Shown one piece after another: positions 42,070 through 50,539 of a stretch of DNA of 64,000 bases. The position numbers and the translations under genes were made by a program. Source of the DNA: Stentor roeselii (lineage: Eukaryota; Ciliophora; Heterotrichea; Heterotrichida; Stentoridae); assembly GCA_006503475.1 (NCBI GenBank), contig RSEH01000005.1, positions 124,001-188,000 of the forward strand, given 5' to 3'. Position 1 is the first letter of the stretch, and every line of letters begins with the position of its first letter. The notes under the pieces were generated by a model. That model saw nothing but the letters and a program-made list of their open reading frames with translations. It ran no database searches and was not told the origin of the DNA.

Positions 42070-45000
42070 ATGGCAGATTACGCTTTTGAGTCACTGAAAA
42101 ACTACCTTGAAGACATCAAAAATGGAGGATTGATGAAGAGTAGGATCAGGGAATTCAAGAAAATTGAAGAAAATATCTCAGCTGTTTGGCCTGTTCATAA
42201 AAAAAGGGTACTTGCTGGGTGTGAAGACGGGAAGATTGTTGTGTTGAGAAATGATTTGGCTTTTATTAGAGAAATTTCTTCGAATATTGGGAAAATTGGA
42301 AGGTTTATTAGGATTTGTCGAGAAGTTTATGTATTTGGAGATATTGAATTAGCTTTGAAGTTCGATGTGAAGTTTGAGAATGTGGAAGAAGTGCCTTTGC
42401 CATTTGCTATTTCTCTTAGTGACTACTCAACTACTTCGAAAATCGTTGTTTTTTATGTTTCTCAGTCAAATTCGGTATTTTTTAAGAACTGCTCAACTGA
42501 TATGAGACCTTTTGAAGGTCTTTCTGAAATACAGATGAATCATCCAGTAAAACATTTGAGACTTTCGAATTGTTACTTGTTCCTTTCAACGACTTGCACC
42601 TTGGAAAAGTGGAACTTGACGAAAAAAGAAGCAGAGGTCATGATAGAAGAAATGAATATTACAAGTCTTGCATGTTCTTCAGACTCTTGTTACTTTGTAT
42701 CAGATTTCACCTTGAAACAACTGAAAATCGACGCAGAACACAAAATTTTAACTAAAGAAGACCTAAAAATAGGAACAATAACTGAACTTAAACAAGGAGT
42801 CACAAGTATTTCATTGGCAAGTAAGAAATATTTGTATATTCTTGGACAATTAGACTTGTCGCTTTTTGATGTGTCTTCTCAAGGCTTTACATTTCTTTGT
42901 TCTTTTAAATTTGATAGTTTGAATTTAAAGGTCATTGCGGATTCTCACTATTTGTATACGTATTCCAAGGGACATATTCTTAGGATACAGACTCAGGAGG
43001 ACCTGCGGATGGAAAAATTAGCTGAAGTTGAAGATAGCATTGTTGATTATCAGTATTGTCATGATAATACTCTGTTTATTGCTACTTCAAAAAATGTTAT
43101 TTTTAAGTATTCGGTTGATATTGGGAAATTAACTTATGTTGAACAGATCAGAAAAGAGTATTATGAAGATGAAATTACATGTATTAGTGTCAATCCTATT
43201 AAATTTGAAATTGCTGTGGGTAGTAAAGAATCGACTATTAAGATTTTTTCCACTGAGAACCTCGATCAGCTCCGAATAATCCCGAATCACAAACTACCAA
43301 TATCTAAAGTGTGCCATCTTCATTCTTCCCTCATATCTGTAGGTTACTATGAAGATCAAGTTGAAGTTTTTATGGAATCAACTCAAAAGATAATAGACCA
43401 ATTCCGATTGACCCAAACATCAACAACTAAAGGAATTTTTTGTACAAATAATTCAGAATTTTTGTATATTTTGCAAGCAGAGTCAATAATAAGTTACAAT
43501 TTTAACGGAAAAAAAGAAGAAAAAATGACAACAAGAAATGATGGTACACTTTATTTTAAATGTGATGATTTATACATGGTTATTGTCAATGAAAAGACCA
43601 TTGAAGTCAGAGAGGTTAAAACGTTAGAAGTTGTTTGTAGTGCTGATTATCATAAGGTCACCAAATCAGAAAACATCTGCGCTATTGGCATCAGTTCAAA
43701 TTTTTTAATTATTTCGACTTCGAATACTATTCATTGTCTTAGTATTGAAAATAAAGTGTTTGTTGGAAATATTGACATTAAGGTCAAGATTAAAGATATA
43801 ATGTTTTTCAATCATATAATTTTACTTTGGGTTGATAAAGAAATTTATAAGATTCCTAATTTCGTTGAGAAAGGCTCAGAATCTTTTATTGTTGGACCTT
43901 CTACTCCTTCACTTGCTTTCATCTGCGCATTGAAAGAAACTTTAGAAGGCAAGGAACTTCCTGACCACATCTTTTCATGGACACTCCTTCCTCAATGCAT
44001 AAACATAATTCACCTCTTCGCTTACAACTGTTCAAGAGACCAAGTAAAAAAGTCCTTCAAAAGCGAAGGCAATCTTTTAAAATCAATAGCCGACATCTCG
44101 CCTCTAACAATATCCTTAAAAAAAGGTTTCAAAGACATCAGTGAATACCTAATAAAAAAAATAGCAAGAGAAAGTATATCAAGGCCAAACATTTTATCAA
44201 TAATCGAGCAAGACCTTGCATCAATAAACCGTTCACACATCGGTCCAATAAGCGAGATATACAAGCAAGCGATGAGTGAATCAAATCAAATAAAACTCCC
44301 TTCATACATCATACCCTTAAAGCCAGATCAAATCATTATAAGCAAAGGTTACATGATCGACCCGAGCAACTTCATCAACAAAGCCGCAGGTCCTCAAGCT
44401 GAGTCTTTTGTGACCTTCTTCAACAGCAACATGCGGCTTCAATTCGCCACCGGGTCAGAAGGATGCGTGAATTTCTTGAGTTCCTTGATTGCTTGCCAAG
44501 ATTCACAAGTTTTTAGCACTCAGATCATTAAGAACTATCTCAACTTCAAATGGGAAAATGCTTCTACTTATTTAAGACTGAATTTTTTTGTTTATATTTT
44601 GTTTCTTTTGTTGATCACTGTTGAGGATAAGATTAAAAATTATACTTGGAGAATTGTTGCTTTGGCTTTGGTACTTTTGATCAATTCTTTGGGACTTGTG
44701 GTTGAGTACTTGCAGATCAGGTTTAACTTTAAAGCGTATATTAGGAGTAAAACTAATTGGACTGACTTGACAAGGATTTTTTTGACTTTTTTATATGTTG
44801 TTATGGTTTTGGTAGGGGAAGAGTCGGAACAGTCGAAGAAGGATAAAATTGGGTACTCGACTATTGTGCTTTTTGCTTCTTATCTTAGGGGAATTATGCA
44901 TTTCAAGATGTTTAAAAGTACGAGATATATGATAAAAATGATTGAAGAAATTATTAAAGATAGTTTTTTCTTTGCAATCATTTTGGTTTATATTCTTTGC

Positions 45001-45570
45001 GCATTTACCACCTTTTACCATTTCGCCAGGACAGGAGCCAGTTACACTGAATCTTTTTCTATTGTATATCTTATCATGTTTGGAGAATTTGGATTTGATA
45101 AAGAGTCAATTATCGAATGGATATGTTTTTATTGTATAAGTATAGGTTTACCTCTTGTGATGTTTAACTTGTTGGTGGCTATTATGGGTGGAACATATCA
45201 GAGAGTTTATGGATCAATTGTTGAAAATGATTTTAAAGCAATGACTCAGTTGATTCTGGAATGTGAAATTGTAAGATCTGCATTTACAAATCCCGAAAAC
45301 AGTCAAATGTATATCCAAAGATGCATCGTTGGCAGTGAAGTAGAAACAAACTCCGACGAAAGCATAAACTCTAAAATAAAAGACTGCATAAACCACGTAA
45401 ACGAACTTCAAGAAAAAATCAAGAACTTCAAAAGCACGAGCCTAGTAGAATCCTGTTCAAGATACAAAAACGAGAAAATGGAGAAACTTGAAGCCTTCAA
45501 AACATTAGTAGAACAAAACAAAAAAGAAATCCTCGAAAAAGTGAATCAAAGTCTTCAAAAACTTAAATAG
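42070..45570 (+). CDS. WD40 beta-propeller fused to a TRP-like ion channel
   Basis: The protein has 1166 aa. Residues 1 to about 600 form repeated beta units typical of WD40 propellers (KRVLAGCEDGKIVVLRND, EITCISVNPIKFEIAVGSKE with STIKIFST). Residues about 835-1060 hold six TM helices of the TRP/polycystin ion-transport type (LNFFVYILFLLLITVED, LTRIFLTFLYVVMVLV, FFFAIILVYILCAFTTFYHF). A pore loop with LIMFGEFGFD precedes the last helix (PLVMFNLLVAIMGGTYQRV), and the FNLLVAIM string is TRP-typical. A C-terminal coiled coil (NELQEKIKNF) could drive tetramer formation. The channel should be cation-selective; what the propeller binds is unknown. Confidence 0.82.
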   Translation: MADYAFESLKNYLEDIKNGGLMKSRIREFKKIEENISAVWPVHKKRVLAGCEDGKIVVLRNDLAFIREISSNIGKIGRFIRICREVYVFGDIELALKFDVKFENVEEVPLPFAISLSDYSTTSKIVVFYVSQSNSVFFKNCSTDMRPFEGLSEIQMNHPVKHLRLSNCYLFLSTTCTLEKWNLTKKEAEVMIEEMNITSLACSSDSCYFVSDFTLKQLKIDAEHKILTKEDLKIGTITELKQGVTSISLASKKYLYILGQLDLSLFDVSSQGFTFLCSFKFDSLNLKVIADSHYLYTYSKGHILRIQTQEDLRMEKLAEVEDSIVDYQYCHDNTLFIATSKNVIFKYSVDIGKLTYVEQIRKEYYEDEITCISVNPIKFEIAVGSKESTIKIFSTENLDQLRIIPNHKLPISKVCHLHSSLISVGYYEDQVEVFMESTQKIIDQFRLTQTSTTKGIFCTNNSEFLYILQAESIISYNFNGKKEEKMTTRNDGTLYFKCDDLYMVIVNEKTIEVREVKTLEVVCSADYHKVTKSENICAIGISSNFLIISTSNTIHCLSIENKVFVGNIDIKVKIKDIMFFNHIILLWVDKEIYKIPNFVEKGSESFIVGPSTPSLAFICALKETLEGKELPDHIFSWTLLPQCINIIHLFAYNCSRDQVKKSFKSEGNLLKSIADISPLTISLKKGFKDISEYLIKKIARESISRPNILSIIEQDLASINRSHIGPISEIYKQAMSESNQIKLPSYIIPLKPDQIIISKGYMIDPSNFINKAAGPQAESFVTFFNSNMRLQFATGSEGCVNFLSSLIACQDSQVFSTQIIKNYLNFKWENASTYLRLNFFVYILFLLLITVEDKIKNYTWRIVALALVLLINSLGLVVEYLQIRFNFKAYIRSKTNWTDLTRIFLTFLYVVMVLVGEESEQSKKDKIGYSTIVLFASYLRGIMHFKMFKSTRYMIKMIEEIIKDSFFFAIILVYILCAFTTFYHFARTGASYTESFSIVYLIMFGEFGFDKESIIEWICFYCISIGLPLVMFNLLVAIMGGTYQRVYGSIVENDFKAMTQLILECEIVRSAFTNPENSQMYIQRCIVGSEVETNSDESINSKIKDCINHVNELQEKIKNFKSTSLVESCSRYKNEKMEKLEAFKTLVEQNKKEILEKVNQSLQKLK

Positions 45571-45607: not shown

Positions 45608-46057
45608 ATGTTATCCCGACTTCTAAGAAGTTTATCTTCATACGAAATGGTCGACATCTCATCAAAGCCAGTCCAGCACCGAACAGCGAAAGCAGAAGGA
45701 AAAATCTTTTTCTCAGCAGAAGGATTCAAACATCTACTCGAAAAAGGCAGCAGCAAAGGCAGCATTCATCAAATGTCAGAAGTCGCAGGGATCCTTGCAG
45801 CGAAACAAACTTCAAACCTTCTTCCTTTATGTCATCCTTTGTCGATATCTAAAGTAAAAGTCGAGCTTAAAGAAGACTTACAAGAAAAAAGCGTGAAAGT
45901 CGAAGCATTGGTGATCAGCGATGGAAAGACTGGAGTAGAAATGGAAGCTTTGACTGCTGTCAGTGTTTCTTTGCTTACTATTTATGATATGTGCAAGAAT
46001 TTTGAGAAACTGTTGAAGATCGGCGATATTAAGTTGGTTTATAAAGAAAAAATTTAA
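45608..46057 (+). CDS. moaC: MoaC-type cyclic pyranopterin monophosphate synthase
   Basis: The protein has 149 aa. After a short basic leader (MLSRLLRSLSSYE) that may target mitochondria comes a complete MoaC domain: MVDISSKPVQHRTAKAEG, AAKQTSNLLPLCHPL and the catalytic region VEMEALTAVSVSLLTIYDMCK. MoaC (MOCS1B in animals) makes cPMP from the MoaA product, the first step of molybdenum cofactor synthesis. In animals it is fused to MOCS1A; here it stands alone, as in bacteria and plants. No other Moco gene is in the window. Confidence 0.95.
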   Translation: MLSRLLRSLSSYEMVDISSKPVQHRTAKAEGKIFFSAEGFKHLLEKGSSKGSIHQMSEVAGILAAKQTSNLLPLCHPLSISKVKVELKEDLQEKSVKVEALVISDGKTGVEMEALTAVSVSLLTIYDMCKNFEKLLKIGDIKLVYKEKI

Positions 46058-48111: not shown

Positions 48112-49389
48112 TTACTCTCCAAACACAATTTGAAAAGTGGTATCACAATCAAGTTTCTTCTTCCAGACCTTTGAATTATAAACAACTTCCAGCCTAGCAA
48201 CTCCTAAATTGAATCCAATTCCAAATCCAACAGCACCTCTAACATATTCCCTGAAATAATTCCTAAAACTACTAACTTTTCCAGGAGCTTCACAAATCAA
48301 ATTCCCAAAAACAAAAGGTACAAGTCCAGTGCCTTCAAGAACAGAAGCATCATAAAAGTGGACTTTATTTTCAATTAAAAGTTTTGATAACTGTCCTAAA
48401 TCATCTCCATAGACGTCATATTTACAAGTCATCACAGGGTCCGCTGGGAGTTTCCTCGACCCAACCGAGTGAAACCCTTTAATGTACTTGATGCGGTACC
48501 TGTCGTTTAAAGACACTTTCGAGAAGCTCCAAGGTAAAAAAGCTCCGAAGTTGAAAGAAGTCTGCCAGGCGATCGAGTTTGTAAGTCCGAAAAACCTGCT
48601 GAACTTAAAATCGACTTTTTGAAAAATGTTGTCTTTTCCCCATGCGAACTCATTTGAAGCAGTGAAAGAATAACCTTCTCTTTGGAGATTTGAAACATTA
48701 GAAATTTTGTATTCACTGAGTAAAAAGTTCTTCGCATTCACTGGCAAAGCTTCAGTGATCAAATTCACAGAAGCTAGATCTGAGTTGATTTTATTTGTCC
48801 TGACAGTCCTTCCTAGTTCCGTCCTGAACTTTCCATTTAAAGTACGAAAGCCGATACTTCCAGAATACGCATTTTGTTTGAAATTATTGTCGATTTCTTC
48901 AGTACCTTGTTTAAACGAGAAGTAATTTTCCCACTTTCCAGGTTTAAACAACTTGTCAACATGAATGACTTCAAATCCATAAGTCTTCGTATTCGGTTTG
49001 TATTCTACTTTCAAGTCAGTCAAGTCAGCTTTTTCCCGAACATTCCGAAAACACCCAGAAATAAAAGTCCTTCCTCCTTCATTATTCGCGTCAGCCCCAG
49101 CAGAAAAAGACCAGGCTTTATTATCTTGAAGGTTGTAAGAAACAAGGGCAGTATCACGAGTCTTCCCTGGAAGGACTTTTATTTCACAGGACTTGAAAGA
49201 GTTAAGAGATTCGAGTGACTGAAGTGAAAAAAAAAGGTTTTCTTGTAAGGAAAGAACACTTTTAGAGTTTTTCACTTTTGAAACTATTTGATGCAGAAGG
49301 TCTTGCCGGATCTTTGTTGATGAAATTTCGATATCGACGGAATTGAGAGGACAAAATAAAATATCTGAAATATCTTCAGGTCCTTCCAT
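48112..49389 (-). CDS. SAMM50: SAM50/Tob55, mitochondrial outer-membrane beta-barrel assembly (Omp85 family)
   Basis: The protein has 425 aa. A short N-terminal POTRA-like part is followed by a long C-terminal region of alternating hydrophobic strands, as in a 16-strand Omp85 barrel. The conserved L6-loop (V/I)RGF motif appears as IKGFHSVGSR. The last strands (REYVRGAVGFGIGFNLGVAR) match the Omp85 C-terminus with its glycine-rich turn. SAM50 inserts beta-barrel proteins into the mitochondrial outer membrane. Lys instead of Arg in the motif is unusual. Its start codon is 7 bp from the divergent TrmO-fusion start. Confidence 0.85.
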   Translation of the reverse strand: MEGPEDISDILFCPLNSVDIEISSTKIRQDLLHQIVSKVKNSKSVLSLQENLFFSLQSLESLNSFKSCEIKVLPGKTRDTALVSYNLQDNKAWSFSAGADANNEGGRTFISGCFRNVREKADLTDLKVEYKPNTKTYGFEVIHVDKLFKPGKWENYFSFKQGTEEIDNNFKQNAYSGSIGFRTLNGKFRTELGRTVRTNKINSDLASVNLITEALPVNAKNFLLSEYKISNVSNLQREGYSFTASNEFAWGKDNIFQKVDFKFSRFFGLTNSIAWQTSFNFGAFLPWSFSKVSLNDRYRIKYIKGFHSVGSRKLPADPVMTCKYDVYGDDLGQLSKLLIENKVHFYDASVLEGTGLVPFVFGNLICEAPGKVSSFRNYFREYVRGAVGFGIGFNLGVARLEVVYNSKVWKKKLDCDTTFQIVFGE

Positions 49390-49396: not shown

Positions 49397-50539
49397 ATGG
49401 AATTTGTACAGGTTTTTCAAGAGGCTGTCGAAAAACTTGTTGAAGATGGAAAAATACCTCCTTGTGAATGGGTACCTTGGGAATTTCTTACTCCGAAAGT
49501 TGCTGAATGGGGAGATTACTGCTGTTTTACTGTGCTTAGGACTTGTTGTCGATTGGCGAAAATTGGAATTGATTGTGATGCGCAGAAATGGTGTGAGATG
49601 ATTGTTTCTGTTGTGAAGGATGAGTTGGGTGTTAAAAGGGTTTATGCTGAAAATGGGATTATCAATTTGCAGATGTTTCATTTGGATTCTCAAGTAAATG
49701 TTGAGAAGGAATCGAAAGGACAGACTTTTAGTTTTGAACCAATCGGGTGGGTCTCCAGTTGTTTCTGTGAAAAATTCGGAACCCCAAGACAAAGTCTTTA
49801 CTCAAAGTTTTCCCGAGGTATAGTTCATCTAAACAATTTCATAAACATCGACAGTTTTGACGGAATCCAAGAATTTTCCCACATCTGGCTAGTCTTTGTT
49901 TTCCACAAGTCAAAGCACAGCAAGTTCAAAACAAAAATAAAGCCTCCTCGTCTTCCAGGTGAAAAGCGAGGAATTTTCGCAACAAGGGCTCCTCATCGTT
50001 ACAACCCGATCGGTTTATCTCTGGTTAAGTTAGAAAAGGTTGAAAACCGTGAAATCTGGGTATCAGGGATTGATTTAATAGACAAGACTCCGATTTTAGA
50101 CATAAAACCTTATCATCCAGTTGATTCTTTGTCGAATTTTCAATGCCCGGAGTACATCAACAATCCTTTATTTATCTACAAAGTTGAATTCCACCCTTAT
50201 TCTTTGGCTCGCATTCAAGATATTAAATCAAGGTTTTCTTTGCAGTTCTATCAAAATGATGAGGACTGGGAAGAGGTCATTAGGGAAATACTTGCCCAGG
50301 ACCCTAGCACTGTACACACTAAAACTAAGCATCCTGTATGAGTTATTAAGGACTTGGGACTGTATGGATTTAAAATTGATAGAATTTTTGTTGTTTATGT
50401 TAGGAATTCCAAGGAAAGTACTCATCTTGTTGTTAATGTTTTACATCAAGATGAGTCGGATTTGCATGACTTAAGAAGTGAAGGCTGGTTACTTGCAATG
50501 CAATCAGAACTTACCGCCCTAGGAATTCTCTCAGAGTAG
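49397..50539 (+). CDS. TRMO: TrmO-like tRNA t6A37 methyltransferase fused to an ArgRS N-terminal-like domain
   Basis: The protein has 375 aa in two exons (49397-50335 and 50351-50539), with a C-terminus of about 60 residues on the second. Residues about 110-240 are a TsaA/TrmO domain: EPIGWVSSCFCEKFGTPRQ, GIQEFSHIWLVFVFH and RGIFATRAPHRYNPIGLS, including the RAPHRPNPIG-type motif. TrmO methylates t6A37 of tRNAs. Residues 1 to about 95 (VAEWGDYCCFTVLRTCCRLA through VYAENGIINLQMF) follow the arginyl-tRNA synthetase N-terminal domain (gDYqsn.a..LAk, vagpGFIN.f). That domain contacts the tRNA D-loop, so the fusion makes structural sense. The extra C-terminal domain is unrecognised. Confidence 0.85.
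50336..50350 (+). other. 15-nt intron in the TrmO-fusion gene
   Basis: It reads GTATGAGTTATTAAG and contains an in-frame TGA. Spliced, it reads ..TKHP-DLGLYGFKIDRIF.. and opens a further 62 codons. Confidence 0.85.

Follow-up and report, generated by a model that had tools for sequence, protein, structure and literature searches.

The gene described here lies in a 64,000-nucleotide stretch of Stentor roeselii DNA (GenBank assembly GCA_006503475.1, contig RSEH01000005.1, positions 124,001 to 188,000, forward strand), referred to below as the window, in whose positions coordinates are given. The genome comprises 44.4 Mb in 522 contigs. The gene joins, in one continuous frame, a front end that resembles, in sequence profile, the arginyl-tRNA synthetase (ArgRS) N-terminal domain, ArgRS-N, to the core of a TrmO-family tRNA methyltransferase, and its C-terminal DPRxxY motif is degraded. 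The features of the locus are as follows.

49397-49678 (+): ArgRS N-terminal-like domain, residues 1-94
49679-49723 (+): linker, residues 95-109, of low confidence in both structure models
49724-50137 (+): TrmO/TsaA beta-barrel methyltransferase core, residues 110-247
50138-50335 (+): first part of the TrmO C-terminal domain, assigned by alignment with 79 bacterial TrmO proteins and a PF18389 match of 17.4 bits (cut-off 27.1)
50336-50350 (+): candidate 15-nt intron, GTATGAGTTATTAAG, enclosing an in-frame TGA
50351-50539 (+): second exon with the remaining C-terminal domain, stop TAG
48112-49389 (-): divergent neighbour of 425 residues, its start codon 7 bp from the TrmO start

Reading frame and domains

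The ATG at 49397 opens an uninterrupted frame of 314 codons up to a TGA at 50339-50341, with no stop between the 94-residue front end and the TrmO core. Codon usage was scored over the first 92 codons of the front end with a model trained on the other 46 open reading frames (ORFs). The log-odds value was 0.168, compared to a mean of 0.089 for in-frame pieces of the training ORFs (standard deviation [SD] 0.063, n=160) and to -0.152, -0.119 and -0.21 for off-frame (n=320), antisense (n=480) and intergenic (n=690) controls. This value was at least as high as those of 87.5% of the in-frame pieces and 99.4% of the intergenic readings. The chance of finding 92 open codons in such intergenic sequence was about 0.07%.

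The TsaA/TrmO core, which a preliminary description made from the letters alone had recognized directly, was found at residues 110-247 with UPF0066 / TIGR00104 scores above the curated cut-offs (126.3 bits vs 93.25; 132.2 vs 26.8). The S-adenosylmethionine (AdoMet) site residues Q132, R197, D226, and K237 were all present and were invariant across 29 aligned sequences. They correspond to Q25, R92, D125, and K136 of E. coli TrmO by alignment and spacing, in an alignment that held no E. coli sequence. The barrel core, the AdoMet site, and the order of core then C-terminal domain are shared with TrmO / YaeB / TsaA (UPF0066, PF01980, TIGR00104), whereas the additional N-terminal domain and the sequence DPSTVH for DPRxxY (residues 302-307) set this protein apart. 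The D and P of the motif were kept and the R and Y were lost; DPRxx[YF] fits 65 of the 79 fetched bacterial TrmO ORFs. The match to the Pfam TrmO_C domain (PF18389) was weak and below its cut-off. In the available part of the TrmO discovery paper, the E. coli enzyme forms no product once D194 and R196 are both altered, the C-terminal domain is proposed to bind tRNA, and archaeal family members are also described without DPRxxY (PMC4132733). With the D still present but the R gone, this motif by itself does not allow a prediction of activity, and because archaeal members do without it, the motif does not define the whole family. On its sequence, the protein would not be filed in the DPRxxY subtype of TrmO (gamma- and beta-proteobacteria, mammals).

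The preliminary description had also proposed that an ArgRS-N-like domain is fused to the TrmO core. Profile statistics supported this: the full-length ArgRS-N profile score of the front end was equalled by none of 5000 shuffles and none of 2714 decoys, and reversed and column-shuffled profiles gave a null outcome. The resemblance to ArgRS-N (PF03485) covers the whole-domain profile, the predicted helix and strand order, GDY, and the A-x-x-G-x-I-N positions, with the firmer matches at P33, G39-D40-Y41, A84, G87, and N90. The ending GIINLQMF was seen as described, at residues 87-94. The motif DY-x6-LA, on which the proposal had partly relied, is literally absent, as the protein reads DY-x11-LA; its LAK aligned with the LAK of ArgRS in one alignment, by way of a 4-residue insertion, and not in another. 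In a structure search that used no ArgRS sequence as input, ArgRS ranked first for the front-end model, suggesting a fold related to ArgRS-N, at low model confidence. Foldseek gave 50 matches to the front-end model at E <= 10 and none at E <= 0.001. The 50 matches listed for the in-context model were TrmO and ribosomal proteins, which covered parts of residues 103-308, so this search says nothing about the front end. Overall, the front end is very probably a true relative of ArgRS-N. It is named ArgRS-N-like and treated as a remote relative because a Pfam search of the protein at a limit of E 10 gave no match to PF03485, and it differs from ArgRS-N further in having A62 where 99% of ArgRS-N domains have proline and I88 for F or Y.

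The synthetase catalytic and DALR domains of ArgRS are missing from the protein. No DALR domain was found in it, and the one DALR_1 match in the genome falls in the ArgRS gene. That gene (locus L002, 31-1917, minus strand) has MDFV in place of GDYQ, and PF03485 still matches its N-terminal domain. A second copy of the front end was sought in the same genome and none was found.

A putative tRNA-docking domain and its alternatives

The reading we favour, and consider reasonably likely as a whole, is that the gene encodes a TrmO-family methyltransferase carrying a remote copy of the D-loop-docking N-terminal domain of ArgRS, which would pack on the elbow/D-arm side of the tRNA. The enzyme would be expected to use AdoMet to methylate N6-threonylcarbamoyladenosine at position 37 (t6A37) of ANN-decoding tRNAs. 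While the barrel reaches A37, the front end would hold the elbow/D-arm side and may take over part of the substrate binding that, in E. coli, falls to the anticodon stem-loop and probably the C-terminal domain. By analogy, a tRNA-grip module, as the preliminary description had it, is plausible, and a tRNA-binding or tRNA-selecting role is probable. This role is ranked ahead of others for three reasons: tRNA is the substrate of the enzyme it is joined to, the C-terminal motif is decayed, and two precedents exist. In mammals, the ArgRS-type (DALR) protein DALRD3 guides the anticodon-loop methyltransferase METTL2; in contrast to the present case, it has a DALR domain rather than ArgRS-N, is a separate protein, serves 3-methylcytidine formation at position 32 (m3C32), and is described only for vertebrates in the part of the source available (PMC7237682). 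Similarly, SerRS picks the tRNA for anticodon-loop methylation by METTL6, although there the whole synthetase acts in trans and the product is again m3C32 (PMC11479938, in part).

The contacts made by the front end would differ from the A20-specific reading of ArgRS. The ArgRS N-terminal domain holds the tRNA D-loop. For the E. coli enzyme, F36, Q40, A78, and N84 are named as binding base A20, with F82 as its stacking partner (PMC8975779, in part). By alignment, these positions become W38, C42, A84, N90, and I88, so that two of the five are kept (A84, N90), one aromatic is swapped (W38), and two are lost (C42, I88). Among 110 ArgRS N-domains used for comparison, the stacking position was F or Y in all, the pocket Asn was present in all, and the pocket Ala in 79. 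The ArgRS of this genome and that of P. horikoshii also deviate from the E. coli pocket, and the pocket is therefore not defining for the ArgRS-N family. The net charge of the front end was -6.1 per 100 residues, compared to a mean of -0.8 (SD 2.9) for the 110 domains; only two of these were as low, the front end being more acidic than 108. Because of the changed pocket and the acidic charge, specific A20 reading is unlikely; a less tight hold on the tRNA elbow, or binding to a protein, would be the better fit.

Four alternatives were considered. The first two concern what the domain does and how old it is. A genuine ArgRS-N-like domain that no longer contacts tRNA, and instead contacts ArgRS, a multi-synthetase assembly, or its own dimer partner, would account for the acidity and for the replacement of Q40 and of the stacking F82, whereas its attachment to a tRNA-acting enzyme and the retention of the invariant N90, of A84, and of an aromatic residue at position 38 speak for tRNA; we regard this as unlikely, if the strongest competitor. 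Scarcely more doubtful is that eukaryotic TrmO proteins in general have long had such an N-terminal domain, so far unrecognised, and that the front end is no fusion peculiar to this lineage. Drosophila TrmO (CG12822) is described with an additional N-terminal domain of about 100 residues, and the discovery paper left out the 19 eukaryotic members since they aligned poorly (PMC4132733, in part); against this, the extra domain is missing from human TRMO in the available account (PMC12977680). If the Drosophila domain were the one seen here, the architecture would be wider and older, which would raise its general interest and weaken the claim of a lineage-specific fusion.

The other two alternatives question the domain itself. 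Convergence of a small helical domain on ArgRS-N would agree with a weak local hidden Markov model score (E 1.2), with the failure of the first ArgRS-N profiles tried to separate the front end, and with low model confidence: the predicted local distance difference test score fell below 50 at residues 84-106 in one model and 80-106 in the second, a span into which the front end's final strand also falls. The shuffle, decoy, and altered-profile controls and the top rank of ArgRS in a search free of ArgRS input make convergence improbable. Lastly, translation could start at Met93 (49673) or Met68, giving an ordinary TrmO with the front end as an upstream frame outside the protein. The 7-bp gap to the divergent start argues for a start further in, as it leaves no room for a promoter and is the smallest of nine divergent gaps in the window (the next is 17 and the remainder are 134-617), and fetched bacterial TrmO frames usually begin shortly ahead of the core. 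However, it is the front-end frame that shows the coding-like codon usage, the improbably long open run, and the likeness to ArgRS-N. An internal start is thus very improbable, and translation from 49397 is favoured because of the coding signal and the ArgRS-N match; a single protein is very probably made from this codon.

Searches for relatives were conducted at several levels. The protein alone, used as query against genome contigs, found no relatives, and the 314-residue ORF had no match in viral contigs. The core alignment, a query without the front end, gave 583 matches in genome contigs, of which the best 80 were kept. From 80 fetched bacterial TrmO loci, 79 yielded an ORF by pattern, and by eye none was judged to have any added domain; three frames open more than 100 residues ahead of the core and looked chance-like by eye, no search having been run on them. 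A TrmO match was present in 156 of 299 genomes from a single bacterial phylum. No description of an ArgRS-N and TrmO pairing was found in paper searches on the pairing and on TrmO architecture, which covered the entries of an open-licence library. Arg_tRNA_synt_N is listed within ordinary ArgRS in the available part of PMC3532385, and UPF0066 appears in a domain table in that of PMC6214176.

A docking domain of a synthetase on TrmO, together with a decayed C-terminal motif, would amount to a natural domain-swap experiment, and would suggest that synthetase parts were recruited more than once to guide anticodon-loop methylation, here in cis. It is conceivable, but doubtful, that the ArgRS-derived domain replaces the decayed DPRxxY C-terminal domain in tRNA selection and retargets TrmO, for example to t6A-bearing arginine tRNAs (UCU, CCU). 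The TrmO substrates named in the available text are tRNA-Thr and tRNA-Ser, the arginine tRNAs not being among those named. The E. coli and human enzymes differ in how they choose their tRNA (PMC4132733, in part). If true, such retargeting would be the cis-fused counterpart of DALRD3-METTL2.

Candidate intron and neighbouring genes

Under the standard code, the TrmO frame stops at the TGA inside GTATGAGTTATTAAG, a GT..AG candidate intron. Its removal adds 61 codons, ends the frame at a TAG (50537-50539), and gives a product of 375 residues, in which the extension resembles by eye the end of the C-terminal domain (YGF...VVYV). Splicing was barely favoured by profile scores: PF18389 gave 17.4 bits spliced and 16.2 unspliced, and the C-terminal domain score in the splice comparison was 21.0 bits spliced, 19.7 unspliced, and 19.8 for exon 1 alone. 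Candidate introns of 13-18 and 21 nt were scanned in the 47 window ORFs of at least 150 residues, counting gains of at least 40 codons. One of 47 ORFs gained at 15 nt, compared to two, none, three, one, two, and none at 13, 14, 16, 17, 18, and 21 nt; since control lengths give similar gains, the 15-nt length alone proves nothing.

In the heterotrich Blepharisma, most introns measure 15 or 16 bp, and B. stoltei reads UGA as Trp (PMC9942806, in part); with this precedent both an intron and a Trp codon are thinkable in a heterotrich. A very small intron and closely packed genes would suit a heterotrich source. The 47 ORFs end in TAA (31), TAG (12), and TGA (4). In the three other TGA-ended ORFs, a further stop follows at the 1st, 6th, or 16th codon, as true stops look, and no 15-17-nt GT..AG stretch spans the TGA. 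TGA as Trp (table 4) was rejected, as these three ORFs meet TAA or TAG within 16 codons and lack such a stretch. In our judgement, the standard code with a candidate 15-nt intron is preferable, the evidence for the intron being modest.

The divergent 425-residue neighbour resembles by eye a Sam50/Omp85 outer-membrane protein, and a Pfam search of it gave nothing above cut-off. Further away, an ORF of 1166 residues (42070-45570, plus strand) has a first half that matches beta-propellers (WD40-like), in each case below the curated cut-off, and a second half that looks by eye like a polycystin/TRP-like channel, with no Pfam channel match at E 0.01. A stand-alone MoaC-type molybdenum cofactor protein (2e-48) is encoded at 45608-46057 on the plus strand.
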